Assembly (NCBI RefSeq): GCF_018873765.1
Contig: NC_057926.1
Location: 49,219,043-49,283,042 of the forward strand
DNA length: 64,000 nt
Source: Telopea speciosissima
Lineage: Eukaryota; Streptophyta; Magnoliopsida; Proteales; Proteaceae
Direction of reading: 5' to 3'
Shown here: piece by piece, positions 24,233 to 62,080 of the stretch
Position numbering within the stretch: position 1 is the stretch's first letter
Layout: each line of letters begins with the position of its first letter
Program-made: the position numbers and the translations under genes
Notes under the pieces: model-generated
What the model saw: only the letters and a program-made list of their open reading frames with translations
Database searches by the model: none
What the model was told of the DNA's origin: nothing

Positions 24233-24392
24233 AAACTTAACAGTTGCAGTGGAACGACTTGTGAGTCGCAGAGCCATTGCTTCAAGGGGGTATGCTTCCG
24301 AAAGACCAATTGTGCTGCAGTTTGCTAAACACAGGGCTTTCATTGAGGGCAATGCCAAGGCTTAACAATGCTTTTGCTCCAAACATTGTTAA
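24233..24392 (+). pseudogene. Plant defensin pseudogene A (exon 2 only)
   Basis: From ACT-TGT at 24257-24262 the frame reads as the mature part of a PDF2-type defensin (TCESQSH, FKGVC, NCAAVC). All eight Cys codons are still present (24260, 24293, 24311, 24323, 24353, 24369, 24375 and 24387). Lesions are TAA at 24326-24328, TGA at 24344-24346, a 5-nt deletion after 24361 relative to copy B, and an added Cys codon at 24278. No signal-peptide exon is found upstream; a copia fragment and other insertions replace that region. The 3' flank, including 'gaataaaatgcag', matches copy B at 31179-31290. Defensins are secreted, disulfide-rich antifungal peptides. This copy cannot make one. Confidence 0.85.
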
Positions 24393-24599
24393 TTCAATGA
24401 GATTTCAGAGGTTACCTAATAAGGGTTTTTCAATCCATGTCTGGAACTGCTGTGTGTGTATCCATATGGGAATAAAATGCAGTGTGCATTAGATTGCGTT
24501 TGTTAGTTTATCTGGGTTTACCATGTTGCCTATGTTGGTGGGTGTGTCTCACTTTGTTTTCTTTTCTATAAATAAATCGATTCAATTTTGGTTTTAAAA

Positions 24600-25790
24600 A
24601 TTGTCACTTGGAAGTGACAAAATGAGGTGTTTACACTTGAATGTGTATATCCTACCAATCAAGTACTTTTGAACTTCGATATAATAGCAAACTACAAGTT
24701 TTCATTTCCGTCACAATAGCGAGAATATTTATAGTTGAGTTTGATCCATGATGTGAACTTTTATACATGCAAGAATTGCAAGGACGAGAATGACAGCCTG
24801 TAACACTAAGAAAGCTAAAGCCAGAACAGAAAGCCCTACTGACTATGATTCAATGAAATTCCAGAGAAGAAAAGATGTTTCTTACGTGGCACCAAAGAAA
24901 GAATTCCAAGGAGTATAACAAGAACTTGATCTTTGTTGGCGAATTTGATTGAAGTAAGACAACATATCTATAACAATAAGAAGAAACATCATAATTTTAG
25001 GGAAAGAAAATTTATCTTAAAGGATTATGAAAGATAAATATTTACCAAATAAATTCATATGATTGGTTTCCTCGAATGTCGTAGTATTGGAAAGTTTCAT
25101 CATCATAATTCCTTCTCATATTTTAAAAAATAACATCCAAGTTAAGAGGAAAGCAAAAAAGAAAAAACAACTGTGAAAAATATTTGGGCAATGTTGTTAT
25201 AACCAAATATCTTGCAAACAATGCATGATATTTGGGCAATGAGTTGTTATAACCAAATATCATGCAAACAGTGCATGGTGAGTATATTGATTTGATATGT
25301 GTTATGAAAATTATATATTACGTTTTATTTTCTGTTATAAAATATTGATATTATGGCATTCATTAACTTAATCTATTTCAATTTTATGATGATTTATTAT
25401 TGTAAAAGGCTGGGCACACCGCCCGTGCACCACAATCTAGTGGGTGTTGTGTCCATCTCTCTCTCTCTCTCTCTCTCTCCCCCACCCCCCTCTTTGAAAT
25501 GACACCTTGCCCCTCTTGGATGATGCATGTGCCCCCATTGGTGCCGCTCGCTAGCTTACCGCATGCGGGTGGTATGCCTATCCCTCTCCCTTTTATTATT
25601 TACCTTTTTGAATATGCTCGCTAGCTTACCACACAGATGGTGTGCCTATCCCTCTCCCATTTATTATTTACCTTTTTGAATGAAGATCTTCTGGATGACT
25701 ATCAAGAAATGCCTTTTATAGTAATTGTTGAGAATCCTATTAATCTTGTTCTTTGGAACAATGGAATTATAAACACTATTCACTCGGATT
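24600..25790. other. Intergenic with short tandem repeats
   Basis: No gene is visible. A 48-bp unit is repeated twice at about 25182-25280 ('tatttgggcaatg', 'aaccaaatatc.tgcaaac'). A CT microsatellite runs at 25455-25480. A second unit of about 65 bp is repeated at about 25550-25680 ('ggtgtgcctatccctctccc'). Confidence 0.6.
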
Positions 25791-25799
25791 TTTATCTGC

Positions 25800-26450
25800 T
25801 CCATTACTGACAGGTTATGTCTTCTTGATGGGTGGAGGAGCTGTTTCATGGAAAAGTGTTAAGCAGACGATTATAGCTTCATCCACCATGCAGACATAAT
25901 TTGTTGCAGTTTTTTAGGCGACCAAGTAGGCAAAGTGGTTGAGAAATTTTATGCAGAACTGAAGATTGTTGACTCTATCTCTAAACCCTTGAGACTATGG
26001 TGTGACGACAACTCCGTAGTCATCTTCTCAAAGAACAACAAAAAGTGGGGTCATGGGCTTCATAATTTTGGTTATGGAGACCAACAAGGCAAAAACCCTG
26101 GCCACTCGTACTCGTACTAGGGCTAGTGCTAGTACGAGTGGTTCCCCCACCAGTCCCACTCCTAAAAGGAGGCGTCCGCCTAAACTAAAAAAGAAAGAAA
26201 CACAGGCCAAAAATAATGAAAATCAAACAGCTCAAAGCATATTGAGAAAAAATATCTTCTAGTCAAAGAGAATGTAACTGAGTGAGAGATTGATGTTGTA
26301 CACATCTCAACTGAGAAGATGATGGCTGATCTTCTCACTAAGGCTCTTTCAGTGGGAGTTTTCAGAGGTCATGTTACTAGCATGAGACTTATAGAGTCTT
26401 TTGATATGTTTGTTTAGTGGGAGTCTGTTTTCCCCTTTTGACTATTATTT
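25800..26450 (+). pseudogene. Copia polyprotein relic (RNase H end)
   Basis: Broken frames carry the C-terminal RNase H part of a Ty1/copia polyprotein: [17 protein letters not shown], then FYAELKIVDSISKPLRLWCDDNSVVIFSKNNK, read here in short pieces, and further on DVVHISTEKMMADLLTKALS (about 26290-26360). Stops at about 25897 and 25914 and a foreign segment at 26043-26210 interrupt it. No integrase or reverse transcriptase is attached, so it is a truncated remnant. Confidence 0.8.
26043..26210 (+). other. Foreign ~165-bp segment inside the copia relic
   Basis: Between 'ttctcaaagaacaacaaa' and 'aataatgaaaatcaaac', where copia RNase H should be continuous, lies a segment with a short palindrome ('cactcgtact' / 'agtacgagtg', about 26104-26140). 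It has an open frame rich in Arg, Thr, Ser, Pro and Lys (STSGSPTSPTPKRRRPPK). I find no target duplication. Its source is unknown. Confidence 0.4.
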
Positions 26451-26545
26451 GAGCTCTTTATTTGACCAGTGGTTTTGTATTCTTTTGTCATCTTAATATA
26501 TTTACTGGTTATGGTTTCATTATTTATTCTTATATGACATGTCTA

Positions 26546-26665
26546 GTGAAATGGCGGTTAGCCATAGACGGTATTAGCCAAAGATTCTGAAATGGCGGTT
26601 AGCCATAGACGGTATTTAACCAAAGATTCTAAAATGGTGGTTACCATGGGTGGTGAGCCAAAGTA
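26546..26665 (+). repeat. ~42-bp minisatellite, three copies
   Basis: The unit 'aaatggcggttagccataga' plus 'cggta..agccaaagattct' occurs twice almost exactly and a third time in degraded form ('aaatggtggttaccatggg'). It lies just downstream of the copia relic, where a 3' LTR would be expected. Confidence 0.75.
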
Positions 26666-26972
26666 TAGTATTAACTCAAGTTTATGTCGATTTTGCCCTA
26701 GTATGAGTTAATGTCAAAGTACACTACCTGTGAAGATGTTTAAGGTAAAGGACCTACAAAGAAAGAGCATTTACTTGGTGATCACTTGTTATGCTTTTGT
26801 TTCCTTGTTTATACATACACCCAAAGTGATTCACATTAATAGGTTATTTATGGTTGTGATGATAGAAAGTTGTATGCCGTATGTTGAGGCATGTTTTCTG
26901 CTGTCATTCAACACAAGTGGTTACTAATTGAATCAAAATGACTAGAGTGGAAGATTGAGACTTTGGTCAAAT

Positions 26973-29508
26973 CCTAGTGAGAGTGGAAAAACTCAAAAAA
27001 AACCTAAAGATTCGCAAAGTGTGATCTATGGTTAAAATTTCTCTTAAATCATTGTAGAAATATTAGAATTCCACATAATTGGCCCGATAAGCCCTCTTTG
27101 GGCTCTAGAAGGTATTTTTCTCACTTATCACTTTCTGTCCATATTTTCTAAGTTATATATGTAGATCAATACTGTTATGTAGACATTTAACCTATTTGAT
27201 CACCCGTGTAAGGGTTTTTGCCCTAACCTAGACCCCTTTTATAACATGTTCAAATACACCATGATAAATTACCATATATGCTATTCCTATGCAATATTAA
27301 TATAGGGGAAAAGATCCCTTCTTGATGGTGCCCACTACACCCTCTCACAAGGTACCATGAAATGACATTCTTGCCCCTTGGGTGGATACCGAGACATGCT
27401 CTCCCATTGGCACAGATGCTGGTTTAGAAACCATGTGACCAAGCAGACATCTCTTGCCCATTAATTTAATGTATACTTACATGTGTATTTTGAAATCCCC
27501 GGCCTCCGTTAAGATGTTGTTTTTTTTTAAAATACCCCTAGTCAGGTCATTGTGTTGTCGACCGTAGACATTGAATTTTGTCACCCTAAAGAATCAATCC
27601 CATGACAACAATAAAAAATACAAAAAAGCCAGTCAAATCAACACGTTTTCCTTTTCAACTGAAATGATACTCACCGAATTCCCATCTGATCCTTCCTTAG
27701 ACTGCACAAACCTGCACACCTTCATCCCCCAGAGTTGGGATCCTCTCCAATGAGCCATCTAACGGTTGGACTGGCAGTGCAAGCGTTGGGATGTGCACAG
27801 GCACACATCCCGACGTGCACCCAGTCAACCTAGCCGTTGGATGGATGCTCATTGGGTGCTCCTCATTGGAGAAAATCCGGACACCTCATCCCCCTCCATT
27901 GTAGACCCCACTCAAAATCAAAATAACAACGGACAACCCGGCTAGGCCCTTTCTCGATAATTAAGTTCCAAAGAATTAAGGGAGAAAAAAAAAAATTATC
28001 TCCCTCAAAATCTAAGACCTTTGAGGATGTAACCAAAGATTAATACCATCAACAACACTTGACTTTCTCCAACAATTTCTGTCGAGATTCCCTCGAAAAC
28101 CGAATTATTGCCCATTAAATACCAGTTGGACCCGTAATGTAACTAACGACTCCTCCTCAGCCTTGTCATCCCTTAATTTGCTAGCTGCGACCTCATCCAA
28201 TTTACAAATTAGGAAGCAACAACCCCTAAATTCTCGCCCCTTCGGCCTTCGATCCCCACCCTTTCATCTCTTTAAAACCTCCAAGCCCGTTTCATTCAAA
28301 TAAATATCTATGAATCGGATCTGTAGTATCACTAAAATTCCATTTTTACCCACTTTCAGGCCTCAGCCCGAAATCCTCGTTTATAAGGGTCAAATGTCTT
28401 TTTCTTTTTTTTTTTTTTTTTAATAAAAAACTCCATTGTTGACATAGATAACAACTGGCAAAATATAGGAGCACCTTAGAAATAGGAGCTCGATCTCCAT
28501 TGTTGGCATACAATGGTGTCAACCGAATCGGTTATGAAATTTGATACTCGAAACCGAACTTCTAAATCTTCTTTAACATTCCTACGTCCTAATAGTGTCC
28601 TTCACACACTCTCTCCTCTCCCCTAAACCATACGCATTTCTAAATCTTCTTTAAGATCTCTATCTCTCTCCCTCGCTATATATATATCCGATCTCCACGG
28701 TTTACTCTGTTTCTATTTCTATCCTTGTCTCCTCCTTATCACTCTCTGTATCTGATCTCCACAGTTTACTCTTATGTATATACATATTCCAACTTCTTTT
28801 TTTGAATTCGACGTTATAAATTAATTCTGTTTCAGTCTGACTCTTCTTTGATCCAAGTAGTGAACAGAACAGAACAGAACACATTATTATTTGTTTATTT
28901 CGGTACATAATTAAGGCTCTTATTACTGACTTTAAAGCTAAAACTCGCTCCACCGATCCTTTTTGAATCAAGGTAGTGGTGAAAGCCTACATCCATTTTT
29001 ATGCCCACCCTCAGCCCGTCTTCTCTCCCCCCAAATTAGTTACTCAACCACCCTGTAATATTTACTAACCGTAAGAGAATCAGATTCACACCTTCCGATC
29101 CTATAAATAGTTTTCTTGAACTTGCAGGTATACTGGGTTTCATTAATTTGAGATAACCTTTGGAGATTTGTGATTGTTTGCACCCTGAGATGACCGTCAG
29201 CAAAAACTATTATTATATCATTGACTGTTGAGGTCAAATTATTAAGCTCTCAAAGACAGATTGAGAAGGAAGAACTGGGATAAACATACATAGAGGGGAA
29301 GTGGTGGAAGAGTCTCCTCCTCTTCAACATTATGTATGTTTGTCTCCAGTTGTTGGTTTCACGTCATTGAGATAAACCAATTTTGTTAGACGGTCAAGCA
29401 TATATCGATCGATCGATCGTGTATATATAATTACGGAGAACCAATTATTCTTGATGAAGCAATACGTGCAAGAGAGAGAGAGAGACAGAGACACCATCGA
29501 GAATGTGA
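26973..29508 (+). repeat. Large direct duplication, unit B upstream part
   Basis: This is the counterpart of 17939-19730, in the same orientation, about 9 kb away. It contains the hairpin MITE copy 2 (27735-27885), an additional stretch of about 650 bp (28380-29000) absent from unit A, and the conserved 'cctataaatagttttctt' at about 29100. In unit B the sequence continues without the copia insertion into the defensin exon at 30053. Confidence 0.85.
27735..27885. repeat. Hairpin MITE, copy 2
   Basis: The arms 'ggatcctctccaatgag' and 'ctcattggagaaaatcc' pair, with inner complementary arms 'ggttggactggcagtgc' and 'acccagtcaacc'. It is the unit-B copy of 18690-18840 and so was carried along by the duplication. 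Confidence 0.7.
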
Positions 29509-30052
29509 AGGTTCTTCTTGTATCAACTACATAATCAAATTATTGTTCTAATACTCTTTTAATTTGCCTTTACACAATGAATTATTGAATTTTAATTTTA
29601 TTGTTTGTTTCTTTTTCGGTTATGAGATGTTGATGCTGTTGGGACAGAGTTAAAGTCATAAAGATCTATCATCTTCAGAAGGCCGGGCTAACTTTTGTGG
29701 TGCTTCAACCTATATGAGTACAGGTTGATCCCAACTACTCTAATCTTTTGTGCATTGAAAATCAGAAACATGATCATCAAGATTTAACAAATTCAGAAGT
29801 TGGAGACAAAAAGTTTTAAAAAGTTTGAATAATCAATTGAATCAGAAGAAGCAAAGCTAACTAATGTGGATTGTGGAGAGAGTACGTTGAGAACTGACAG
29901 GGTCCTAAAACCAAGGGATACTTTAACTATTGGGACCTTTATTAGGGTATCCACCCATTGATGATCTTGGGTATGTATGGCTTCTTTACTCTTATTTGGT
30001 TGCTCTCTTCAGTCACACACTACCAACTTCTCTCTCTCTCTGACTGACTTCA

Positions 30053-31178
30053 ATAGAGGGCAACAAGCGTTTGTTTTCAGCACTGTTCGTTCTCATGCTG
30101 TTTCTTGTGGCTACTGGTAACTACTCTTATTCCTTTACCTCTCTCTAAGTTTAGTACCATTTTTGTTTTCAACTTAAATTTCCTTACCAACTGATTCATG
30201 GTAATACAGCCATGGCATGTGATGAGCAGCTGATGACACTAAGAGAGAGTGTTAGCCAAGCTATTCTCTCGTCATAAACTCTTCATAAATTAAAGGGGGG
30301 AAAATCCTCTGCAATGTCCTAATCTTGCGGTGCAGACATTAGAGCACAACACACGGAAGATATGACATCCAATGTTGCCAAGCTCGAAAAGAAAGAAAAG
30401 AAAAAACTGCCTTGCATCGAGCTTGCACAGTTGGATGGAGCTTCTTCCACGTGTCAAGCTCTTAGGACCGCATTGCCATGCACCACCAAGGGTGACAGGA
30501 AGACTAGAGAGTTTTGTTTGTTTTCTCATGAGTTAAAACTGAACATAAAAAAGGTGACAGGAAAACTAGAAACTAGGTTTCTTATAAGAAAATCTGTTTG
30601 CTATGTCAAGTAAAAGAAGTAGGTATGTTAATGGGCTGAATAGCTCATATATTTTAGTTCCAATCTGATGCTGCAACATAGCTGACAAGGGTTTGGGCAA
30701 TCGGTACGGACCAAGGGTAAAAAGGTAATAAAATATGAAAAATCATGGGTAAATCTGTCTGATCCATCCGATCCAGATTGATCCCGATCAGTATCGGCCG
30801 AGACCGATACCAGAATACCAATACCGATGACTAAATCACTGTGCTCAGCCTCAGATGGTCACCAAGAATTCGGATATATTCATCCAATCCAGGGATGGGA
30901 TGGGCCTAGTTCTGGGCCTAAAGTTGGCCCATTAACACTACTAAGATTGAATTTTCAGATAACCTTCTTATGTTTAGACTAAATAAGTGCATGCTTTGTT
31001 GGTAGAAGAGAAGGGACCAAGAATGGAAGAGGCAAGGACTTGTGAGTAGCAGAGCCATCGTTTCAAAGGGGTATGCATCCTAAAGAGCAACTGTGCCGCT
31101 GTTTGCCAAACAGAGGGCTTTCATGGAAGGCAATGCCGAGGCTTCCGCCGCCGATGCTTTTGCACCAAACATTGTTAA
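30053..31178 (+). pseudogene. Plant defensin pseudogene B, two exons, two point lesions
   Basis: Exon 1 (30053-30116, 64 nt) encodes a signal peptide (NKRLFSALFVLMLFLVAT) and has the same length and phase as exon 1 of the intact gene at 62080-62017. The donor is GTAACT at 30117. Exon 2 (31009-31178) starts after an 'aag' acceptor and encodes the prodomain end (EEARTCE) and a mature region with all eight Cys codons (31041, 31074, 31092, 31104, 31134, 31155, 31161, 31173), ending at TAA 31176-31178. Two lesions disable it: the start codon is ATA (30053-30055), and a TAG occupies 31047-31049, where the family has Ser. The intron is about 890 bp, enlarged by later insertions. The family is antifungal. 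The copy looks recently lost. Confidence 0.88.
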
Positions 31179-31399
31179 TTCAATGAGATTTCAGAGGTTA
31201 TCTAACAAGGGTTTTTCAATCCATGGCCGGAACTGCCCTGTGTGCCTCTATGAATAAAATGCAGTGTGCATGAGATTGCGTCTGTTGGTTTATCTTGTGT
31301 TTACTGGTTTACCTTGTTGCCTATGTTGGTGGGCTTTCTCACTTTGTTTTCCATTTTATAACATACATCAATTTGATTTTGGTTTCAAAAGTTAAGAAT

Positions 31400-32880
31400 C
31401 CTTTTTCGGTTTGATTTTGTTTTCTTGAGTGAAACTGTCAAACCAAATTATTCATTTTCGAATCGAATAAGGAACCGGATAAATCATATTCTTTTTTAAC
31501 TATTCTTTTTTAATGTCTAGAAGATGTTTGGTGTAAAAAGTTGGTCTAAAGACCTAAAATAAGGCATAACTCGAATACAAATCAGGTCAAAATCGAATAA
31601 AAAACCGAGCCAATTAACACCCTTATTTGATAGGACTAAATCCTATGAAAACTGATCAAACTAAACTGGTCCAATGAAACTTAAAGAGTTGGTCTATTTA
31701 TTGCACAGATCAAACCAGCAAACCATAATTAGCCTGCGGTCCAATTTGGTTTCTTCTATTTTCATCAAGACCAGAAAGTATGGTTCATCACGTATATAAA
31801 AGTGTCAATGTCGAATTCAAGGATATTTGGGTACGGCTTAACTTGAGCCGGGTTTACTGCTATTAGCTAATGTCAATTAATAAGTTTCATAAAATTGCAA
31901 GTACATCATTCATCATAATCAAGGTTTTATCGGAATCGGTCAGAGAGGATTCTGCTTGGAATCGGCCTAAATCGGTTTAGGAATCATGAATCTAAACTAT
32001 TTTATGATGAAAATAAAATCGGCTTAGGAATTGAGAATTGGCCCATGAATCAGTCCGATTCAAGATGAATTATAAAGAAAATGACTAGGACTCGGTCAAT
32101 TCGGATCCGACTCAGTCGATCCGATTCCAATTCAGGAAGCAATGATTAGGAGCAGTGGAAATCAGGATTAATGTTAGTCGATTTCAATCCAAAGTAGCCA
32201 ATTGACCGATCTAATTCCCAATTTTTTTTAAACTATGGTTATAATGGCATTTTCACAAATTTTTCACTTTGAACTCACTTTTGAAGCACTTCAACAACTT
32301 GTTTGGAACAAAATTCAACTTGAATGAATTCAGGTACTTCTGAAAGAGAATAGAGATTCAAGATATTTCATTATCATTTTATTCAAGTTGCATGGAGTAG
32401 GGTTTAGTACAATAAATTACAAAGACACCTTTGGTAGACCAACACACACTATAATACCCTCTGGTCATGTTGATGGTGGGTAGTCAAAATCCAACAAGTT
32501 GCGCCAGCTATCGGGTTGTGCCGTTTTCCAGACACAAGAATACATGAAAATACTATCCTACCCCCTTAAAATATAAAAAATCACATCTATGTTGATGTTC
32601 CTATATACGCTCTCATTGACCCCGTAAAATCATTGTTGCTATTTTTTATGAAGTGAGACTTTTTCTAACTTCTCTTAATTCCATTTTTCAAGCAAATTAA
32701 GTAGGGAGGGAAGTTGTGAGGTATTTGACCATTATGGTTACAAAACCGTAGAAGGCTAGAGCTATAAAATCAATCACCAACATTTCTCTAGCATGTATTA
32801 ATTCTGCCATAATCAGAACTCACTTTTGCTTCAATTTTGATTTTATTGTTCTTTCCTTTCGCCTCTCATTCTCTCTATCT
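31400..32880. other. Intergenic with degenerate 'atcgg' repeats
   Basis: No gene is visible. About 31920-32220 is full of 'aatcggt', 'cgattc' and 'gatccga' words on both strands, similar to 30770-30830, 7020-7180, 33290-33370 and 60890-61100. A TATA-like 'tataaaat' at about 32765 precedes the F-box relic. Confidence 0.5.
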
Positions 32881-32903
32881 TTTATACTCACTCTCATAGA
32901 CGA

Positions 32904-33146
32904 ATGGAGGCAACCCCACAATGGTCGGAGCTTCCAGAAGAATTGATAGAGAAGATTGCAAAGTGCCTGAATCATCATCGCGATTATATACGATTTCGAG
33001 CAGTTTGCGTTTCATGGAAATCTGCGGTTCCCAAAAACCCCACCCACCTACCTTTGTTCCCCCACTTAATGACCTATGATGATTCTTGGAACCCATTTTA
33101 TAAGAGACCTGGCGTATGCACCCGTCCATGGGGTTATTGCGATTAA
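32904..33146 (+). pseudogene. F-box gene fragment
   Basis: The first about 50 codons match the F-box of the intact gene at 36226 (WSELPEELIEKIAKCL, then RAVCVSWKSAVPKNP.HLP). After about residue 57 the sequence departs, and a stop follows at codon 81. The DUF295 part is missing. It is a truncated paralogue, about 3.3 kb upstream of the full gene in the same orientation, so a local duplication followed by loss is likely. Confidence 0.85.
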
Positions 33147-33420
33147 CTACTATTCCTGTATCGAATTTCAATTTTGATTTGTGAAAGGTTTTAAGTGATA
33201 ATAAATACATCGGTATCAGGAAAAGGTTTCTCTAGGGTTATTTTTTCTATTATGGGCAGCGTTTCAAAACACCAAATTGAGGTTCTTTTTTTCTATTTCC
33301 AACCTGAATCAGATTGGAATTGATCGGAATTGGTCTCCAAGGACCTAGTATCATCAGCTTTTAGATCTAAAATCTCATCGATTCTACGGTTCCTTGGCAT
33401 GCGTCATGGATCATTATCGT

Positions 33421-33580: not shown

Positions 33581-33589
33581 AGGAAAAAA

Positions 33590-36225: not shown

Positions 36226-37368
36226 ATGACAGTAGCCCAAAAGTGGTCAGAGCTTCCAAGGGAATTGTTAGAGAAGATTGTCAAGTGTCTCACTCTCTAT
36301 GCCGATTATATTCGAGTTCGAGCAGTCTGCGTTTCATGGCAATCTGCTCTACCAAAGACACCCAAACACCTACCTAACCAGTTCCCACTTTTAATGCTAC
36401 CCTACAATCCAGAAACTGATACACACTGTAAATTCTACAGCCTTTCTGAGAACAAGTCATATCACCTCGACATTCCTTTTGAGATCCATAGCAAGTTTCT
36501 TTGTGGATCATGTCATGGTTGGCTCGTTACAGTAGATAACACTTCTTCCCTTGCCCTCTTCAATCCTTTCACCAATGCCCACATAGATCTTCCATCTTTA
36601 TCCGAATATGGTTCTCAAGGGTTATTATCTCTACACAAAGTTGTGTTATCATCAAATCCCTCTTCTTCTGATTTCATGGCAATAGCCATATTTAGATATT
36701 GTTCAAGTTTGTTATTCTACAAATGTGGAGACAAGAGATGGACTATAGTGGAAGAACCAGCTGCAGAGATCAAATTTTTATTCAGAGATGTTATATTCTA
36801 CAAGAATCAAATTGTTGCTGTGAGAACAGATGGAGAAGTTGTTATAATGGATATCATTGGTAATCATAGAAATTCTACTCCTGAGATTAAGATTAAGCAG
36901 ATATTGAGACCACCAGATTCAATCACTCTTGATCATAATTTGTATCTGGTAGAGTCTGAAGATGAGTTTTTGATTGTTACTCAGTTGGTAGGTTTGTGGA
37001 GATTGGATGACAACAGTGCTAACCATTATATAACAACTGGGTTTGCTGTTTATAAGCTAAATTGGAGCAAGAACAGCACAGGGGTTATAAATGCAGAGTG
37101 GTCTGAAGTGAAGAGCTTAGGTGACTGGATTTTCTTTCTGGGTTTGGGACCTTCGTCTTATTTCTCGACCAATGATTTCCCTGGGTGTAGAGGGAACTGC
37201 TCATATTTCAGTGATGATCTCTGGAATACTCACTTGGAGAGTGCCGGAGGGGGTAATATTGCTCTGTTCGACATGGAAAATAAAAGGATTAAATCATTGC
37301 CATGCAATCCTCAAGGACTCAATTGGCCGTCTCCCCCTGCAATTTGGGTTACACCCAGTCCCATTTAA
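36226..37368 (+). CDS. F-box protein with DUF295 (KIB/SKIP23-like) domain
   Basis: A single-exon gene of 380 codons. The F-box spans about residues 6-48 (WSELPRELLEKIVKCL, RAVCVSWQSALPKTPKHLP) and would bind a SKP1-like adaptor of an SCF ubiquitin ligase. The DUF295 part follows from about residue 60, with typical motifs: CGSCHGWLVTVD, ALFNPFTNAHIDLPSL, and a late YFSDDLW followed by GGNIALFDME. Substrates of DUF295 F-box proteins are mostly unknown. The length is normal for the family and there is no break. The frame begins at the first ATG after a pyrimidine-rich leader. The truncated relative at 32904 supports a locally duplicating family. Confidence 0.93.
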   Translation: MTVAQKWSELPRELLEKIVKCLTLYADYIRVRAVCVSWQSALPKTPKHLPNQFPLLMLPYNPETDTHCKFYSLSENKSYHLDIPFEIHSKFLCGSCHGWLVTVDNTSSLALFNPFTNAHIDLPSLSEYGSQGLLSLHKVVLSSNPSSSDFMAIAIFRYCSSLLFYKCGDKRWTIVEEPAAEIKFLFRDVIFYKNQIVAVRTDGEVVIMDIIGNHRNSTPEIKIKQILRPPDSITLDHNLYLVESEDEFLIVTQLVGLWRLDDNSANHYITTGFAVYKLNWSKNSTGVINAEWSEVKSLGDWIFFLGLGPSSYFSTNDFPGCRGNCSYFSDDLWNTHLESAGGGNIALFDMENKRIKSLPCNPQGLNWPSPPAIWVTPSPI

Positions 37369-46265: not shown

Positions 46266-48692
46266 TTACCCGATGGAAGTTGGTCTGAAAAGAAAGAACA
46301 GGTATACATTGTTCTTCACCAGACCCTTCATCCTCAACTCATTATATGCCTCTTCAAGCTTTATATAGTCCAATAAGTCCATAGCAACCATATAAGGTCC
46401 TGGAAGTGAGCCTGGAACCTGTCAAGATTGGTCCGTAAGGTCAAAAAGTCACTTGGTTTATGCTTCATTCCCTTGGCTGTGTAACCTTCATAGTCTACCA
46501 CCATCCGACCCAAGTACCAAATAGGTAACATCGTCTGGCAACATACCCACCTTCTTCATCTCATTATATGTTGCATGAGCTTTATCCTTTAAACCAAGTC
46601 TGCAGTATGCAGTGATAAGTGCAGTATATGTTACCTCATTCGGAGTGGCATTATGCTTTATCATCTCATTAAACCACTGCTGCGCAATGTCCATCCGGCT
46701 TGATTTGCAGTACCCATCAACCAGACAAGTATAAGTGACTACATCAGGCAAAAGACCATTTTGCACCATTTCATTAAAAAGGACACAAGCCTTACCCATG
46801 TATCCAATTTTACAAAAACCAGAAATAATTGCTGTGTAACAAATTCCATCTGGCATCAAATCCTTTGCTTTCATTTCCTTGAATAAATTCAAGGCTTCAC
46901 TGATCCTGTTAACCTTGCACAGTCCACTAACAAGGCTTGTGTACGTGACTCTGTTTGGTGCAATCCCACTTTTTGACATCCTCGCATATAACTTGCAAGC
47001 CTCCTTTAAATTTGACTGTTTGACAAAACCATCTATAAGGGTACTATAAATAACAACATCGGGAACAAGACCCCTACTCAGCATCAAAGAGAATAGCTCC
47101 CAAGCCCTCTCTGCTTTCCTTTCCTTGCACAGTCCATTGATGATTGCATTAAATGTAAACAAGTTGGGAATAATGCCCTGCTCTTGCATTTCATCCAAGA
47201 GTCTGAAAGCTTCATCAATGTGCCCTTTCTTGCAGTATGCATCAACAATAACACTGCATGTAACGGTGTTTGGCAGTACACCTCCATCCACCATAAGTTT
47301 GAAAAGTTCCAAGGCTTTCTCTAAGCATCCCATCATGCAATAAGCATGGACCAAGCTAGTATAGTTGTAAACATCAGGGATGAAATTATTTCTGATCATC
47401 TCCATCCAAAGTCTATGAACATAATTGAAGTCCCCAAGCTTACAGCATCCTGCTATTAAGATGTTATAAGCAATTTGATCAGGATTACAAGCCAAAGCCT
47501 CAAGTTTGTGGAACAATTTAAGTGCATCTTCCATTTGTCCATTCAAGCAAAGACCACCCAAAAGAGAACTATAGCTAACTAGGGAAGGCCTTATTTTATG
47601 GATAACCATTTCCTCCAGTAAAGTGATGCCTTTCGTAACATTCCCCTTCTTACAGAACCCATGAATCAGAATGCTGTAGCTGTGAGCATCCGGTGATACT
47701 CCACATCTCTTCATTTCTTCAAAGACCCCCTCAGCATCATCTAACCTACTTTTGTGGCAAAAGCCATGGATAACAGCATTATAACATTGACTATTGAGGG
47801 GCTGGTTTCTATCTCTCAAGATTCGAAGGAATTTCAGCCCGGATTCTGCATCCCCAACCCTGCAGAGCCCACGAATATATGTACCATAAGTCACAACTGT
47901 AGGGCACACCCCACACCTCTCCATTTCTTCTAATATTTCAGTAGCTTGGCTAATATCTGTGACAGCCTGCCCAATATCTCCTTTACAGTAAAAATTCATC
48001 AAAATAGTATAAGAGAAAACATTAGGCCGTGGACCGTAGTTCTTCATTTCCTCAAATAAACTTCTTAAAAATTCTATTTTGTTTCTTTCCACCAAACACT
48101 GGAGCAAGATATTGCATGCTTTGACATTTGGTTCAAGTCCAATGTTCTTAGCTTGCACAAACACATCTACAGCATGTTCAAGCATTAATGAGCTTGTAAA
48201 AACCATCATAAGAACTTCAAAGACAGAAACCGACTTTTCTGCCCCCGCTAACTCCAGTAGAGTGGGACACAATGCAAATGTGTTCCAGTTCACTTCCTTA
48301 CAGTAGCATACAACCTCTCGTAAAAGATCACGTACTTCCTTGTGCATTCCTGCTGATGAAAAGATATGAACCATAATGCAGAAGGCATTGATAGAATGAG
48401 AAAATCCATACTTCTCAACAGCTTCTAAGAATCTTATTTCCCTTGCAAACTTCACATTCAATGAATGAAATACTCTGACTACAACGGGGAATAGGGTACA
48501 CTTTCCACTGACAAATAAAATGTCTCCTCGAGCATAATTTTCAGCAGTAATTTTAGTTTCATGGTTTGGTGCTAAATCAAATGAGTTTTCCTCCAAAAGC
48601 GATGGTGAAGAAGCACCATAGTACACTCTGAACCAGAATCTTTGTCTTAGACGGGCTCGATTACGCAGCAATCCCAGTTCAGTCAGTGTCAT
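46266..48692 (-). CDS. P-class pentatricopeptide repeat protein
   Basis: The long frame 46488-48692 gives 734 aa. From about residue 190 it is a row of about 15 PPR units of 35 aa (for example YNILIAGCCKLGDFNYVHRL and YSTLIDGFVKQSNLKEACKL), without E or DYW domains, so it is a P-class RNA-binding protein. The family acts mostly in mitochondria or plastids. The Arg-rich N terminus (NRARLRQRFWFRVYY) fits an organelle presequence. A TAA lies in frame 6 nt before the ATG, which fixes the start. A possible alternative end exists: a donor at 46517 and acceptor at 46419 would replace the last 9 residues with 50 others ending at TAA 46266-46268 (775 aa). The entry covers both forms. Confidence 0.92.
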
Positions 48693-48699
48693 AGATTAG

Positions 48700-49450: not shown

Positions 49451-49454
49451 AGTT

Positions 49455-51160: not shown

Positions 51161-51164
51161 CTAC

Positions 51165-51421
51165 GGGCGTGTTTGGTTGCAAGGGAAATGGGAAAGGGAA
51201 GTGAAGGGAAGGGAAAGGAAGTGAAGGGAATTTTTTTTCCCTTTTAAGTCGTTTGGTTGCAAAGGAAGCCAAGTGAAATTAATTTTGCTAAGTCATTTGG
51301 TTGTCTATGAAATTGATGTAAAATCAATGTAAATTTTTTTAAAATTTGTAATCCAACCCACTTTACTAACTTTCACTTATTAAGGCTCTTTCTTAATAAT
51401 TTATGGAAAAGGAACGCTAAC
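51165..51421 (+). repeat. Dispersed repeat, left part, target of the hAT insertion
   Basis: This begins 'gggcgtgtttggttgcaagg' and is almost identical to 63729-63992. It continues to 'ggaacgctaac', where the hAT element is inserted. After the element the repeat resumes at 56614 with 'acgctaaccggtgctgcag'. Confidence 0.9.
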
Positions 51422-52945: not shown

Positions 52946-53234
52946 TTATTACTTATTACAGCCGGTAGTCCATCACTATTCACCGATTTCACTCACAGTC
53001 TCGATCCACGAGACTCACGATGTCACACACACAACAGAGCAAGCACATATTCAACTCCATAATTTCAGTTTTTTTCCCCTCCATCCATTAATGTTAATCT
53101 GCTAAAAACCATACTTGGATTTTATGTTTTTGTATTCCATCCTAGTTCACTTAATGTTAATATGCTAAAAATCAGTTTAATTGTTTTTTTTTTTTTGTTA
53201 CCTTTGTAGTCTACTAGTGTCTTTCACTCAACTA

Positions 53235-55935
53235 ATGGATGGTTCTACACCAATTAGTAGTGGGGGTGAAAATATTGTAAATCTTGGAGCTACTCCAGGA
53301 TATGATCAGCGAAGACCAGCAAGAAAGGCCAAATCAAATGACCCTGGGTGGAAGTATGGGTATTGGCGGATCTAACAAACAAGAATGTTGTTAAATGCAC
53401 CCTTTGTGGCAAAGAAATGAGTTGTGGAATTAAAAGATTGAAGCAACATTTGGTGGGTGGATATGGAGATGTTATTAAGTGTACCAAGACGAATGATTCT
53501 ATTTCTCAAGTGATGAGGGCAGCTCTAAATAAAAAAAGAAGAAACAAATTACGAAGTATTGGATGATGATGATGGTGATGATAATCTTTGTAGAAGTTGG
53601 AGGGCAAATACAATCGGAAGATACACTAGAAGGACAATCCCAGACTCTGGATGCTGCTAGGGTGGCTCCTAGCTCTGGGACAATTGCTAAGAAAAGAAAG
53701 GTTACTCAGCCTCAAGTAAGGGGTCCCATGGATGCTCATGTTAGACGGACTCCTGAGCAAGTAGTCAATGAGAGGCATAATAGTAGTTCTACTCAGACTA
53801 CTATAGAGAACCGTTTTAGGACACCAGAACAAAAAGCTAGAGTTGATTATCACATTGCTAAGTGGTTGTATCAGCAAGGTATCCCATTCAATGCTATTAA
53901 GGCAAGGACCTTTGAGGTGATGTGCGAGTCTATTGCACAATATGGTTCTGGATATATTCCACCTTCATATCATCAAGTGAGAGTGCCATTGTTAAGAAAT
54001 GTTGTGAATGAAACTGAGAGATGAAGAAAAATATGAAGAGTATTGGAAGCAGTATGGGTGCACTCTTATGTCGATGGATGGACGGATAAGCGGGAAGGCA
54101 CTTAATTAATTTTCTCGTTAAGCTGTCGAGGGGACTTATTTCATGGGATCCGTTGATGCATCGGTATGGTTCAAAGTGCACAAATGCTATTTGAATTGCT
54201 TGATAGCAAAATTGATGAGATTGGTGAGGATTATGTCATTCAAGTTGTGACTGACAATGCTTCAAACTATAAGTTGGCTGGTAAAATGCTTATGGAAAAG
54301 AGAAAAAAGCTATCTTGGACTCCTTGTGCAGCCCATTGTTTAGACTGATGTTGGAGGATATAGGTGGTCGAAAGACTTTAAGAATGTGATAGGTAAGGCA
54401 AAAAAATAACCACCTTCATCTACGAGGCACACACGTCTTCTTGATGCAATGAGGAAAAGAAGCTGGACAAAATGATCTTGTGAGAGTACTACTAGATTTG
54501 CAACGCTTGTTTGACATGTCGAGCTTAGTTAGGCATAAGGATGCATTGAAGCATTTGTTTATTTCGATGAGTGGAAGGGTTCTAATTTGTCAAAGACAGA
54601 ATTTGGAAAGAAAGTGGAAGAAACGGTGTTTTTGTACCATTTTGGAACACTGTGGAGGATTTTATTAGAGCATCTAAGCCACTTATTGTTGTTTTGAGGA
54701 TTGTTGATGGTGATGAGAGGGCTGCAATGCCTGAAGTTTATGTTGCTATGGAAGAGGCAAAAAAGAAAATACGTGAACATTTAGCACATAAAGAACGGCT
54801 GTGGAAGAAAATTATAAGTATCATTGACAGGCGTTGGGAGTGTCAGATGGAGCGTCCATTGTATGGAGCCGCACTATTTCTTAATCCCGAAAAATTTTTC
54901 ATGTTCAAGGAAAATGAAAATGGCGAACTGATTGCCAATCTACACATCTCATTGGTTGATGTCATGACCAGATTGGTAGTTGACCCTGCTATACAAGACA
55001 AGATAACTTTGCAAATTGATGATTATAGATATTCAAAGGGTTGTTTCGGGAGGGATATGGCGATTAGACAACGGACAACCATAAATCCTAGTAAGTAACT
55101 TAGTATTTTTAGTTTGTACCTACATTGTATGCTACTATGTCTATGATGTATTACTATTAATTCAGTTTTTTTATTATATTTTTATAGTTACTTGGTGGAG
55201 TACAAATGGAGGTCGTGCTTTTGAGCTTTCAAAGCTTGCACGACGCATACTAGGCCTTTGTTGCTCTTCTTCTAGTTGCGAGCGCAACTGGAGCACATTT
55301 GAGTTTGTAAGTATTAAGTATTAACTTACATGATTACATTTACTTTTAATTTATTTTGTAGACTTTTTTTTTTCACTTTTGTTATGTCTTTTTATTGAAA
55401 AATGACTTTTTTGTTCTCTCTTGTTTATGAATTCAGATTCATACCAAAAGAGGAATAGACTGGAACATTCTCGTTTGAATGATCTAGTCTATGTTCAATA
55501 CAATAGCTGCCTCCATGAAAGGTTTCAACAGAGACGTGAGTGGAAGGCAAAAACAAAACATATGATCCACTAATTCTTGATGAGCTGGATTGGTCTAGTG
55601 AGTGGATGGTTACCCGATCAGAGGAAGATTTAGTCCATCCCAATGATGATCTCACGTGGGATGATGTTGGTAGAGCAATGGGGGCATCGATTGAAGCCCC
55701 CATCCGACCAAGGAGAACTCAAGCATCAACCTCTAGAGCCGATGTGACATATTCACGCCGTGGACATGCTAGAGGGAGAGGTAGCTCAAGGATGGCTGAT
55801 GTTCAGGATGACTGTGAGCTAGATGAAGATGAGGAAGAAGAGGAAGATGATGTGAATGACGACGAGAATGTCGTAGATGACTATGTTGGTGTCGAAGAGC
55901 CACGACAAGAAAATCGCCAAATGCGGATCTTTTAG
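53235..55935 (+). pseudogene. hAT transposase (BED, DUF659, hAT dimerisation), frameshifted
   Basis: Pieces of one protein are in order. The N terminus at 53235 leads to DPGWKYGYW, then after a 1-base loss near 53366 comes a BED zinc finger (C-T-L-C, then LKQHLVGG and VIKC). A DUF659 region follows (FNAIKARTFEVMCESI about 53890; VIQVVTDNASNYKLAGKM about 54235; CAAHCLD about 54330). Next is a spacer (about 54650-55095), an intron (about 55097-55187) and the dimerisation motif (LARRILGLCCSSSSCERNWS, about 55228). An acidic C-terminal tail ends at TAG 55933-55935. At least four frame changes or stops break it. It would have cut and rejoined DNA at the element ends. It cannot do so now. Confidence 0.88.
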
Positions 55936-56621
55936 ATGAATATGATAATTAATTAGTTTTGGTCCTTTTGGATATTATGATTATGGATTATTTAAACTTT
56001 GAAGTTTGAACTTTAAACTTTGATCTTTGAAGATTAGTTAAGGACTTAAAGTTATCTATATTTGGTTGATTACTTGACTTTAATAATTTGATCTTTGATT
56101 CCTATATTAGATTATCTATCTTAAATTATTTTTTGGCTTTTAAATACATAATTTCCTCTCCTCTTTCATCAAATTCATATATATTAATATATACCTATTA
56201 CTTTGTTCGTTGCTTTGCTCCAAATCACACACACTGAAGAAAGACTATTGCTATCAAGCTTGATGCAGTTAGCCTATCATTTAATTTTTACTATTGCTTT
56301 CAATTATTTGATAGGTTATCTATATTTTCAATTTTTCATACTTTCATATACACTAATGGATATTAGTTACACTTTCATGAATTAAACCATAGTGGCATAG
56401 TATATTAGTAGTAGTGTAGTACACTTTCATGTTGATTTTTGATGTTATAGGACATATATTATGGCATACTCAATGACATTAAAAATAGAGAAAATAAAAA
56501 ATTAAACATGGTCGACATGCTCGCCATGGCAACGCCATGGCGGGCGACATGTCGATATATCGACGTGACACCCTTCCACCGACTTGGATCGCCGTGACGC
56601 CGTGACAACTATGACGCTAAC

Positions 56622-57440
56622 CGGTGCTGCAGCGCAGTGTGTATCTGCGCTTAGGCATTGCCATGCAAAATGGCCGGTGCACCCCCTGGAAAGGTAGAAA
56701 GGACCAGGGGTGTGTCGGTCATTTCAAACTTTGTAATATATAACAAAATTTTAATGAATTTGAAAACACATCATATCCACCCCATTGAGACCCATAACAT
56801 TTATTAACAAATTTGCATGGGCAATTAGAGAGAGCCTCCAAAGTCTAACAATTTGGATGGTTAGGAGAGGGTATCGCACATCAATGGGGGGGATATTATC
56901 GGACATTCATAAATAAATGGGTAGACATTTATAGTCATTAATGATCATTGAAGCAAAACCAAATTGTAAATTCGGGCCTAATGATTCAAAATGCAAACAT
57001 TCAATATGCCTCTTCTGCATTTCTCTAACCGTGTGTGGAAGAAAAAAATAAAACGATTTCCAATCACAAACTGGATAAAGGAAATTCTATCTATAACCAG
57101 TTGGATTTTTCCTCAATCAACCAAATAGTACAATTTGCTTACAAAAAAAAAAAACAAATCCAAAAATGGCCACAAACAAGACCAGCCTCAATGGCATGTC
57201 AGTATCAGATTGCAGTGTCAAGTTCCTAATTGAAGTTTTCCAACTACAATGTGACCACTATATACAAGGGCAAGGAATAGAAACTAGGCTCAAATACCAT
57301 ATTCAAAGACCAAAATTAAACTCCACAGGAAACACCAATGAAACTCAACGAGTGAGCCAAACATCATAAATCCAAAGTGCAAACAGTTCCATACTTAGCT
57401 AACAATGTTGTATCTTATGTAGCTAACAATGTTGTATCTT
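56622..57440. other. Intergenic, remainder of the dispersed repeat and flank
   Basis: From 56622 the repeat interrupted by the hAT element continues ('cggtgctgcagcgcagtgtg'). Beyond about 56780 there is AT-rich DNA. No gene is visible. Confidence 0.5.
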
Positions 57441-57448
57441 ATGCTAAT

Positions 57449-57620
57449 TCAGCTGTAGGTTCCCAACCCCACACCAATGTCTTTGCCAAAGTCAGATCTG
57501 AATCCATCATTAGCCTTAGAGTAACAAACATGAAGAGTTCCTTGAGTATGCCAGTGAACACAATGAAGGCAACCCCTGCTCCAAAGACCCCTTTCCTCAA
57601 GATCTCGCAAGAAGAAGGTT
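57449..57620 (-). pseudogene. DUF1218 membrane protein fragment (last exon)
   Basis: On the minus strand the sequence reads SCEILRKGVFGAGVAFIVFT and, after a 1-base shift near 57530, YSKANDGFRSDFGKDIGVGLGT, ending at TGA 57449-57451. The order (C-E-hydrophobic-RKGVFGAG, a membrane segment, then a short tail ending VG.GTY) fits the end of plant DUF1218 proteins, small four-helix membrane proteins. Upstream exons are not found within the next 1 kb, so it is a fragment. Family assignment is from memory of motif order. Confidence 0.55.
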
Positions 57621-57639
57621 TTTTTTTTTTATGAGACGC

Positions 57640-58380
57640 AAGAAGGAGGTTGGTCCCAAAATACTGTCTTGTATATTGTATGGTAGGCAGTCCTCACAAA
57701 ACCCGCAAGCAAGCAAGCAAATCTCCGCGATAAAAAATGCCAACCTGCGATGGACAAATCAACATTATATTTAATAGTTGGAGCAAAGAAGGAGAATATT
57801 AATGTCATGGAATGGAAAATTAAAGCATTGGGCAGATACAGATCAAAGAGAGTTCAATTTCAAAATTTATCCACCATTAATAAGTGCCAACATCCTAAAT
57901 TTCATCAAGCAAATCCAAGTATGCTGCAAGGGAACCTTTTCCCAAAACTAACAGAGTACAACACCCCCCCCCCCCAATAAATAAATAAATAGCAATCAAT
58001 CAATAGAATAATCAGTTGAGTCCAATAAACAACAGTAAATCCAAGTATGCCATAAGAGGCATTGATGTTAGATTTGGGATTTGAATCAAGAAAGGAATAC
58101 TAACATCCATGGCTACAAAGATTTATTTTGGCAACATTACATATTATTGCATATCCTACCAACTCCAATTGTAATCTATCTGCAGTCAAATCCACCACTG
58201 TAATGATGCTCAAGTTTGGGTTGAATGGAGTAGAAGGGGGAGGGAATAATAACATAGTCAAAACTCAGCCCCATCTGATGTTTAGATACTCTAAAAATAG
58301 ACTCTTCCCTATCTCGACTTCCCCTCCACGGCTCCTCCCACACCCTTGCAAGTTGGAAGATGGAAAATGGAAATTGATAA
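57640..58380. other. Intergenic, no gene seen
   Basis: A short 'aagcaagcaagc' run lies near 57710, and a poly-C run with 'aaataaataaat' lies near 57965-57990. No recognisable coding frame. Confidence 0.45.
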
Positions 58381-58385
58381 GTAAT

Positions 58386-59013
58386 ATGTGAATTTCAAAT
58401 CGAAATCACATGTGGCCAACACATTTTGGGTGGGATTTTGCTTACGACCACGAAACCTAGCTTCATACTCAGGACTTACACTAGCCGGGATATGTGTGCC
58501 ATTTATGGCACCTATGCAGTCCTAAAAGAGATATGTTCCATTGATTAGTAAAAACAAATTAATATATGCTTAAATGTTTATTGTATTCAAGTTTTGTACC
58601 TGGAAATATGGCATCCATCTAGGATTATCCTGACTTTTTTGAGGGATTTCAGTAATAGGATCCTTGATGAACACTTTTTGCATGTCTAAGATAGCATTTA
58701 GAACCTTATGGAAGTAACGACACACGGTCTCTCAAGATCTTTTCGTGCAGATACGTACGGTACGGTTCCTTTGGTTTAGGAAAATTGTGTGTAGGAAGCG
58801 TAATACTTGTTCTTCAACAGTACAATAAATGGTATTGTGAAGACGACCCGATTCTCTAAAAATATTGACAAAGCGTTGAAAGCAATCTACAGTCATCCTA
58901 GTCATGTGTTTGCAGTCCTCATCTGACTCTAGTAAACGACTCACAAAACCACGATGAGTATAATAAGTATTCCTATAGATTGACTTGTCCATATATTTTG
59001 AGTAGTATTCCAC
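58386..59013 (-). pseudogene. PIF/Harbinger transposase relic
   Basis: Exon 1 runs from ATG 59013 to 58600 (FVSRLLESDEDCKHMTRMT, CFQRFVNIFRESGRL, then ETVCRYFHKVLNAILDMQ). It is interrupted by TGA at 58732-58734. An intron follows (58522-58599, GT/AG), then exon 2 reading DCIGAINGTHIPASVSPEYE and RGRKQNPTQNVLA. The sequence leaves the family after about 58390, so the later catalytic residues are missing. The first catalytic Asp of 'AIDGTH' is Asn here (codon 58501-58503). It is a dead copy of a Harbinger nuclease. Confidence 0.85.
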
Positions 59014-59019
59014 AGCATT

Positions 59020-60370
59020 GCATTAGCAGAGAGACAGAGAGAGAAGGAAAGGAAGGTGACGTTCGTACGTGGAAAGAAAATTTATTGGGCGGAAAATAAG
59101 GCTACAACAAATTAAAGATGAGAGAGAAAGAAGCACTATGGTGGGGCGGGTTTTAAGGGGAGGGAGGGGGTAGGGTTGGAGAGAGCGGGAAAAGGAAGGA
59201 GGCCGGCTTTGTAGGGAGGAGGGTGGAGGGAGTTGCAAGGAAAGGAGAAGAAGAAAGGAGAGATAAGGATGTTGGGGGTATTTTAGGTTTTTTATTTGGC
59301 TTTTTTTATACATATGGGGATTTGGTAAATCTTTTCAACATCATAACTTGTAGTTGTAAAACATAATTTATACCACCTAGTTTTGTAAATCTTTTTATAT
59401 ATTATCTAGTAGATCTAAGTAATTCTCCCTATAATCTAATTGTTTTGTTTGCTTTGCTTTCCCATTGGAATTAGGATTTTCTTTACCTTGAGGATTCGTG
59501 GGTCATGAACGCTAGAACGAGATATAGCCCCCAGACTTTCTATTGCATCACTTTTTTTTTAAGCATAGGCTGAAAATCTCTTGAAATAACCAATATATGT
59601 AGATCTAATGGTCAGTAAACTATCATACTAATCATGAATTATTTGTCATGGTAACAAATTTTTTTAAAAATTAATATTTGAAGTTGTACTTTAAAAAATG
59701 GGCTAAGTTACCGAGGACAAACCATCCTTATAAACTTGTGAAGATGGCCTAAGATTCTATTACTTGCCAAATCAAATGGGCTCAAATTTTGTGGACATAT
59801 AGACCTCAAGGAACTCATCCGGGTCGAATTTCAGCTTAAATGCACAGTGGCAAAATAAAATCTTGAAAATCTAAGAGAAGTTGTATGAGCAAATGCGGTG
59901 GGGGTGCTTGAAGCTGAGACCTTAGCTTAGGGCCTGCTTCTACATGACAAGCTCAAAAGTAAGCTGGTATGCGTGTATACGCGGATAGTTGACAATAAAT
60001 ACAATAATGTATGTGCACAAAGGTGAAGGCTTTTGGTTTAATTAGCCCCTAAAAATTTAACATGGGCCAATCTAATTTAGACCTATCTATTTCAATGGTC
60101 AGAATTACCACATCATCCCACTAAGTGGCGAAAAATTGGTGAGCAACCCTGGTAACTTATCATATGACCTATTTTGAAGAACTTTTGCCTTCATTTTTTT
60201 TATCATGGTGATCTTATTTGTGAATTTTTACCTTACTTTTCATGTTATTCCAAAAATTTTGTACATATTTATGCTGTCAAATAATTTGTAATTTTAGTTT
60301 TTGGACAAAGTTTTTCTCAACCCATAGGTTACATGTTCTAAATGCACCTATAGAATTGTCATTCAAGATC
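59020..60370. other. Intergenic, no gene seen
   Basis: A purine-rich stretch (59030-59275, mostly G and A on the plus strand) borders the Harbinger relic. The remainder is AT-rich without coding frames. Confidence 0.45.
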
Positions 60371-60375
60371 CGGAG

Positions 60376-60487
60376 GGGGTAATAATGACTGTAGCCGGCC
60401 TTACCCCTGCTTTCGCAGGGAGACTATTTCCAGACTCGAACCTATGACCACTTGGTCACAATGGAGCAACCTTTACCGTCTACCCCC
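60376..60487 (-). mobile_element. Truncated Au-like SINE
   Basis: On the minus strand: 'gggggtagacggtaaaggtt', then 'gaccaagtggtcataggttc' with a box-B-like 'ggttcgagtctgg', then 'gaaatagtctccctgcgaaa' and 'gtaaggccggctaca'. It matches the first two-thirds of the Au family. The 3' part ('gtgcacc.gg') is absent. Confidence 0.75.
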
Positions 60488-61590
60488 ATAAATAAACGAT
60501 GCACATATTTATATTTATTTAATTACATTTTATTGTGCCAAAAAAATATCATCATATTTCTCAGAGTTCTGTACCGTAATTTTCCCATATACCACCAAGC
60601 CCACAAATCCATAGTCCAGTTTAGGAGGAAACAGGGTTCAAAGGGGATTGGGCTCAATTTGGGCAAGAGTAAACGAAATGATCGGCCCATAACCCTATTG
60701 ATTGTTTTACACCATTGGATAGGGTTCGCCTTTGGTTTTTTCCTCCGTTGATTTTCTTTGTAAGACCGGTCCTTGAGCAGGAAATTTTGGATATGATATT
60801 GGGATCCATTTCTTCCAACTTCCTAAATAAAATTTGAATCGAAATCATTAAATTTTATATAATTAGCCCCTGGCAATGAGGTATGTGTATTGGTATCGGA
60901 TCGACAAGATCGGATCTGTATCGATATCGGCTGAGGCCTATCCTGACCCTTGGCGATCCTGGATCAAGGGTAAAATCCAAAAAAAAAAAAAAACCCCAAT
61001 TTTTAATGAAAACTAGAGGGAAAATCGACCAATTTGAATCGATACAAGGCCGTCAATCTGGATCAATGTCAACGGAGTCCTATACCATCTTCGATACCAA
61101 TATCTCAATCCATGGTTAATCCACCGAGGTCACGCAAGCCAGAGGTGGGTCTCTCACACCATGGATGGACCATACCTATGTGGGGACCATCCCTTTGTGG
61201 GGAGAGGATCTGGATCTGCTTAGTCCATTTTTGGATCAGCTCCCCACATGGGGATCAACTGCTTATATGGTGTGAGTCCCGCATGCTATGGACGGTGGAT
61301 CCCACATGAGACCGTTGCTACATGGGGACAGGATCCGGAATCTGGATTTAGTCTAGGTTTGGATCAGCTCCCAACATGGGGATCGACTATCTATAGGATC
61401 TGGGTCCCACACCCCATGGATGGTGAATCACATGTGAAGATCATCCCGGTGTAGGAAGAGGATTCGATGAATTTAGGAGAGAGAGAGCACAAACATAGTA
61501 TTACATAAACTGACTACGTACGAAGGTAACAAAACACATTAGTAGCAGAGCAATCTCAATCTAACTCTCCATTCTCAAAACATAACTCGG
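60488..61590. repeat. Repeat-rich intergenic DNA
   Basis: About 60890-61100 carries 'atcggatc' / 'cgatatcggctgagg' words. About 61140-61450 contains two diverged copies of a segment of about 140-150 bp sharing 'ggatcagctcc.cacatgggg', 'ggatc' and 'gtgagtccc / gggtcccac'. No coding frame is convincing. Confidence 0.5.
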
Positions 61591-61596
61591 TTCACT

Positions 61597-61602
61597 TTAT
61601 TC
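61597..61602 (-). terminator. Poly(A) signal of the defensin gene
   Basis: AATAAA on the minus strand ('tttatt' on the plus strand), about 85 nt after the stop codon. It is the only such signal in this position. Confidence 0.5.
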
Positions 61603-61686
61603 TTAAAACACATCAAAACACTGAAAATTAAGAAACGATCAAGCAATCCCTTGTGCAGAAGAAGCTGGTAATGTCTGACTTGTCGA

Positions 61687-62080
61687 TCATGGATCACAAG
61701 TTTTGGTGCAGTAGCATTTACGTTCAAATCCCTTGCATTTGCCTCCATGAAATCCCTCCGTTTTGCAAACATGAGCACAGTTCTTCTCATGAACACACGT
61801 CCCTTTGTAGTGATGACTCTGTGACTCGCAAAGTCTAGCCTCTGCCACCTTCGGCCCCATCTCTATTATCAATCAAGTAAAACAAACCAACTCTATTAGT
61901 TATAAATCAAGAAAAAATCTACTACTACTACTACTACTACAACTTCAAACGATGAACTTTCAACTTATAAACTTAAAGAGGATAAAGGACTAGTAAAGAA
62001 GAAGAAGAAGAAGAACCAGTAGCCATGAAAAGCAATGAAAGCACAAGAAGAGCTGAAAAAACCCGCATGCTTCGCTCCAT
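61687..62080 (-). CDS. Plant defensin (PDF2/gamma-thionin type), two exons
   Basis: Exon 1 (62080-62017) encodes the signal peptide ([20 protein letters not shown]). Exon 2 (61862-61687) follows a 154-bp intron with donor GTTCTT and acceptor AATAG. It completes an E-MGPKVAEA junction and a mature peptide of 48 aa starting at RLC, in total 79 aa. The mature part has the eight-Cys pattern of defensins, the GFHGGKC gamma-core and a C-Y-C pair. Such peptides are secreted to the cell wall and act against fungi; some have other targets. A TATA-like box (tttaaata on the plus strand, about 62127-62134) and AATAAA (61597-61602 in reverse) fit a complete gene. Two broken relatives lie at 24233 and 30053. 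Confidence 0.94.

Follow-up and report, generated by a model that had tools for sequence, protein, structure and literature searches.

Plant Defensin Genes of Telopea speciosissima in Probable Birth-and-Death Turnover after Segment Duplication

The 64,000-nucleotide stretch of Telopea speciosissima DNA analyzed here (the window, C11:49219043-49283042) carries three plant defensin copies, two broken (A and B) and one complete (C), and ends within a cluster that holds three more complete defensins (C', D and E) 14-33 kb past its end. Taken together with the homologous cluster on chromosome C6, these copies are best explained as a defensin cluster in birth-and-death turnover following duplication of a chromosomal segment, probably of the whole genome, with gene conversion acting locally in addition; we assign this explanation a probability of roughly 0.85.

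The intact genes encode a precursor predicted to be secreted: exon 1 carries the putative signal peptide, a single phase-1 intron follows, and exon 2 holds a short linker with the eight-Cys defensin. In the proposed course of events, the C6 and C11 segments would have separated first, followed by tandem duplication of an A/B-type gene on C11. Copy A would then have lost its coding capacity through replacement of its 5' half, together with stops and frameshifts, and copy B through loss of the start codon and gain of a stop, the A/B type staying intact on C6. On C11, copy C would have been duplicated into an inverted repeat, with C and its partner C' exchanging sequence by gene conversion over the signal exon and intron.

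Defensin Copies in the Genome

A search of the whole genome (822.9 Mb, 1287 contigs) with the plant-defensin profile PF00304, at its curated cutoff of 25.1 bits, scored 36 candidates and retained 25 of them as exon matches. This number is what the search found, and degenerate copies may have escaped it. The matches are distributed over C2 (4), C6 (9), C8 (1), C9 (5) and C11 (6). A full model, with a phase-1 intron and the eight-Cys pattern, was obtained for 20 of the 25, the signal exons and acceptors being picked by the analyst from listed candidates; the five remaining copies are A, B, two on C6 and one on C8. In the 20 complete models the putative signal exon measures 58-76 nucleotides (nt) and ends in phase 1. 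Eight Cys residues in defensin spacing within an open frame occur in C and 19 other copies, and in neither A nor B. A signal peptide split by a single phase-1 intron is the typical layout of plant defensin genes, whose peptides are exported and antimicrobial.

The three defensin exons placed in the window by the initial annotation, here delimited as 24239-24392, 31006-31178 and 61687-61862, all score above the profile cutoff. Their description as eight-Cys exons holds for B and C, each in one frame, and needs qualification for A, where the eight Cys codons are divided between two frames and an extra Cys is present.

Two observations concern copies elsewhere in the genome. The lone defensin exon at C8:60631127, placed next to C2:81526396 in the tree of mature regions, is without Cys8 and continues into a lysine/glutamate-rich sequence; its in-phase acceptors lie only farther upstream than usual, and the copy is likely broken. 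In the other defensin type of C6, C6:49809359, which carries ten Cys, differs from C6:49781608 by a nonsynonymous divergence (dN) of 0.179 and a synonymous divergence (dS) of 0.163 (31 vs 8 changes), and fast or relaxed evolution of this pair is possible.

Copies A and B and Their C6 Relative

Copy B is nearly intact. Its signal exon (30053-30116, plus strand) comprises 64 nt, ends in phase 1 and is followed by GT, with the start ATG changed to ATA. Exon 2 (31006-31178, plus strand) keeps eight Cys codons in frame and has a TAG as the second codon after Cys1. The profile match starts at 31035 and reaches 58.3 bits, with this one TAG inside; exon 1 runs in frame into exon 2, and the TAG is codon 36. 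In the gamma-core, the second Gly of the GG preceding Cys5 is changed to Arg. The enumeration of one-intron GT-AG models yielded an eight-Cys product in 18 of 5165 cases between 29850 and 31400, and none of these 18 stop-avoiding forms keeps the signal exon or the native Cys1. The corresponding controls were 210/4233 for X, the C6 relative described below, and 40/1262 for C. Since both exons, the intron and the flanks are kept and disabling lesions are present, B has the character of an unprocessed (duplicated) pseudogene. Over both exons, B and X differ by dN 0.082 and dS 0.339; the values suggest that B was once a working gene whose history was mostly under constraint, part of which belongs to the X branch.

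Copy A is far more degraded. Its exon 2 (24239-24392, plus strand) shows, in order, a 1-nt deletion before Cys1, a TAA after Cys4, a TGA ahead of Cys5 and, ahead of Cys6, a deletion of 5 nt, and it is because of this last deletion that the eight Cys codons fall in two frames. The profile match starts at 24257 and scores 42.5 bits, with two stops inside. No signal exon for A was detected in 10000-26500 with the exon-1 proteins of B, C and X or the exon-1 DNA of B and X: the best scores were E 0.39 for protein and E 0.13 for DNA, and the same search over the control interval 28000-32000 recovered the exon of B at E 2e-10. The expected place of the missing signal exon and intron is occupied by about 4.5 kb of DNA (19730-24238, left border set by eye) for which no counterpart was found in unit B. 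A palindrome resembling a miniature inverted-repeat transposable element (20605-20790), with relatives on C2, C6 and C9 at 76-88%, lies inside it, and exon-like coding fragments are visible by eye at 23200-23870. None of the 4653 one-intron GT-AG models of the region 22900-24700 gives an eight-Cys product. With exon 2 and the unit flanks kept and disabling lesions present, A likewise has the character of an unprocessed (duplicated) pseudogene. The initial annotation was thus right that the tandem pair is broken and C intact.

On the minus strand, at about 17017-17109, DNA of the B intron finds a further match (E 2e-18; 81% over 94), and weaker ones occur elsewhere. These matches are misplaced for an intron of A and are presumably a repeat.

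The kinship of the pair is evident on both sides of the exons. On the 3' side, 24253-24602 matches 31034-31393 at 82.5%, in agreement with the earlier statement that A and B share their 3' flanks (24393-24602 and 31179-31393, plus strand). On the 5' side, matches that the initial annotation did not contain lie 9.0-9.7 kb apart: the 5' part of the duplicated unit at A (17935-19681, plus strand) corresponds to that at B (26969-29401, plus strand), with 84.6% identity between 17935-19317 and 26969-28370 and 76.7% between 19284-19681 and 28992-29401. The exon 2 and 3' flank of B match, in genome DNA, only B itself, A and C6:49780348-49780670 (X), and therefore the likeness of A and B is not due to chance. 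A looks-like remnant of a copia-type retrotransposon, recognized by eye, occupies 25800-26450 between the two copies.

No disabling lesion is common to A and B. At the TAG of B, A has TCG; B has sense codons at both stop sites of A and neither of its deletions. The pair was therefore probably duplicated before either copy broke, and A and B probably died separately. X itself is complete, with an intact signal exon very like that of B (MEGSKRLFSALFVLMLLLVAT) and an intact defensin (Pfam 66.6 bits). Over exon 2 and the 3' flank, the Kimura two-parameter distance (K80) is 0.17 for A-B, 0.32 for B-X and 0.39 for A-X. The branching order of A, B and X is taken from this longer alignment and the common flanks; dS over the 105-nt codon set does not separate A-B from the rest.

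Copy C and Its Inverted Copy

Copy C, on the minus strand, has an intact exon 2 (61687-61862; PF00304 65.5 bits) and a signal exon of 64 nt (62017-62080) that ends in phase 1 and is followed by GT. The 64-nt signal exons of the same phase reported initially for B and C are therefore both present. In the whole-genome profile search C appears at 61696-61836, minus strand, with 64.3 bits, and its precursor is complete, with 79 residues and eight Cys.

C lies in one arm of an inverted duplication (59430-63728), about 93% identical to the other arm at 76075-81123 (window numbering, beyond the window), which carries C'. The arms match in four pieces at 92.9-96.7%. In the main piece, 172 of 2863 compared sites differ: 109/1643 in the 5' flank, 58/832 in the 3' flank, 5/240 in the coding sequence and 0/148 in the intron, apart from a 6-nt length difference. 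The combined flanks, at 167/2475, are thus 6-7% diverged. Against this background, the interval 61801-62142 is identical at all 336 compared sites, with that single 6-nt intron length difference. The next longest identical run is 80 sites, and a run of 336 was reached in 0 of 5000 shuffles, which presume equal mutability along the arm. The tract is probably the product of gene conversion that took in the signal exon together with the DNA immediately before the start, the intron and the beginning of exon 2.

Selective constraint would offer another account of the identical tract, as it spans the signal exon and the exon-2 start, and the coding sequence is less diverged than the rest (5/240, Fisher P 0.004). 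However, the tract also includes an intron with no substitution in 148 aligned sites, and the remainder of exon 2, where constraint would be expected to be strongest, has all five coding differences, four of them amino-acid changing. Constraint is accordingly considered unlikely in comparison with conversion. Five differences are too few for a selection test. It is conceivable, though doubtful, that conversion homogenizes the export half of the gene (promoter-proximal DNA, signal exon and intron) and leaves the mature peptide, encoded directly beyond the tract, free to diverge, mostly through amino-acid changes (4 of 5); one small gene would then combine a homogenized export half with a diversifying effector half.

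Two further repeats are found near C. A direct repeat stands on either side of its arm (56614-59023 vs 63983-67977, window numbering), matching at 91.6% in one piece and 93.4% in the other. The stretch 51165-51420 is repeated at 63729-63989 with 95.8% identity.

Probable Duplicated Segments on C6 and C11

The anchor for the duplicated segment is a pentatricopeptide repeat (PPR) gene at 46488-48692 on the minus strand. Apart from itself, the gene is best matched in the genome by C6:49743756, which lies between the homologous defensins of C6 and is 81% identical, with the next best at 34%; this counterpart has an open frame of 760 codons plus stop. The PPR pair shows dS 0.311, dN 0.097 and transversions at 18 of 222 fourfold degenerate sites (4DTv, 0.081 raw and 0.089 corrected). 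In addition, E pairs with C6:49729254 (E') at dS 0.48 (16 changes in 45 sites). When 114 kb of C11 was compared with 90 kb of C6, matches with both order and strand reversed were seen for the PPR gene, a stretch at 75.2 kb, the E-bearing interval 96.7-97.4 kb and a place at 98.9 kb. Since both the PPR gene and E have C6 counterparts, the C6 and C11 segments have the appearance of duplicates, and the same pairs speak against the two clusters being unrelated.

The duplication probably involved the whole genome. For Macadamia tetraphylla, the excerpted text of PMC8906886 gives 4DTv peaks at about 0.10 and about 0.42, and the value of the PPR pair is close to the former, which marks a recent genome duplication; the comparison sets one gene pair here beside a peak there. 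That this duplication is shared with Telopea is our own suggestion.

Several results weigh against the history proposed here. The tree of the 25 mature regions does not resolve A, B and X; the row closest to B in it is X (87%), not A. On the 105-nt codon set, dS is 0.314 for A-B, 0.295 for A-X and 0.391 for B-X. Between the segments, the dS of E-E' exceeds that of the PPR pair, and there are non-collinear matches, for example at 40.4, 43.1, 56.5, 79.7, 82.4 and 101.5 kb; these scattered matches are taken as repeats without proof. Given the inverted block, X should lie on the other strand, so that a further local inversion is needed. The equal mutability presumed by the shuffles bears on the C/C' tract in the same sense. 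Finally, that A and B have apparently lost their function is a reading of their sequence.

Copy Number and Alternative Explanations

The initial annotation concluded that the locus now has a smaller defensin dose, which is not borne out by the cluster as a whole. Past the end of the window it continues with C' (C11:49297002, plus strand), the complete, inverted near-copy of C, and with D (C11:49302858) and E (C11:49316341), both complete, E being its last copy. C11 thus has six copies found, four complete and two broken (A and B). Of the nine on C6, two are broken; the seven complete ones are E', X and five that belong to another type, and in the tree C and D are joined by none of these nine profile matches. 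The A/B type appears to have been lost from C11 and is intact on C6. Because the cluster continues with complete copies, one of them a recent duplicate of C, the dose is not said to have shrunk. A plain loss of defensin copies from the locus, with a fall in its output, would agree with the breakage of both A and B; it is nonetheless rather improbable, as C11 retains four complete genes, of which two stem from a recent duplication, and C6 preserves the lost type.

Two other explanations leave A and B a different standing. Dead for coding, they might yield transcripts that act as RNA on C or on the intact copy of C6, either as a decoy or as a source of small RNAs. The retained exon layout of B and the sequence that A and B share with X leave room for such a role, but the identity between B and X is only about 78% and the 5' half of A is gone, making it very improbable. 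Even less probable is that the stops and frameshifts come from faulty assembly. Indel errors can occur in long-read assemblies; several of the lesions, however, are base substitutions, and A has some 4.5 kb of other DNA where its signal exon has been lost.

Birth-and-death turnover after segment duplication therefore remains the preferred explanation. If it is correct, the locus would document defensin turnover in compact and datable form, with opposite fates of the copies: on C11 both tandem copies of one type were lost, C6 keeps that type, and another type is newly doubled. It also carries a warning that copy loss judged from one window can misstate a whole cluster.

Other Genes in the Window

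An open F-box / KIB1-4 beta-propeller gene occupies 36226-37368, and a partial relative (76%) lies at 32895-33053. Three open reading frames within 53563-55935 have no Pfam match.

Comparison with Known Systems

Plant defensin arrays evolving by birth and death are already known, and the system belongs among them; the probable conversion tract and the opposite fates on the two segments are of modest interest. Among the papers listed on plant defensins and Proteaceae, titles and abstract openings mention no such cluster. C shares with the plant defensin/gamma-thionin family (PF00304) the eight-Cys spacing and a putative signal peptide. The closest solved sequence is PDB 7c2p ('Plant defensing Egk'), all 47 residues of which are matched by C with 72 bits; C differs from it in having two residues (DP) after Cys8, and A and B in being broken.

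A comparable array is that of AtLURE1/CRP810_1 in Arabidopsis, for which the excerpted text of PMC3525529 describes five functional genes and one pseudogene and proposes duplication and/or gene conversion. As far as that text goes, both are tandem arrays with a pseudogene among intact copies. In contrast to the LURE peptides, which have six Cys and attract pollen tubes, the Telopea copies encode predicted eight-Cys defensins and lie on two apparently duplicated segments.

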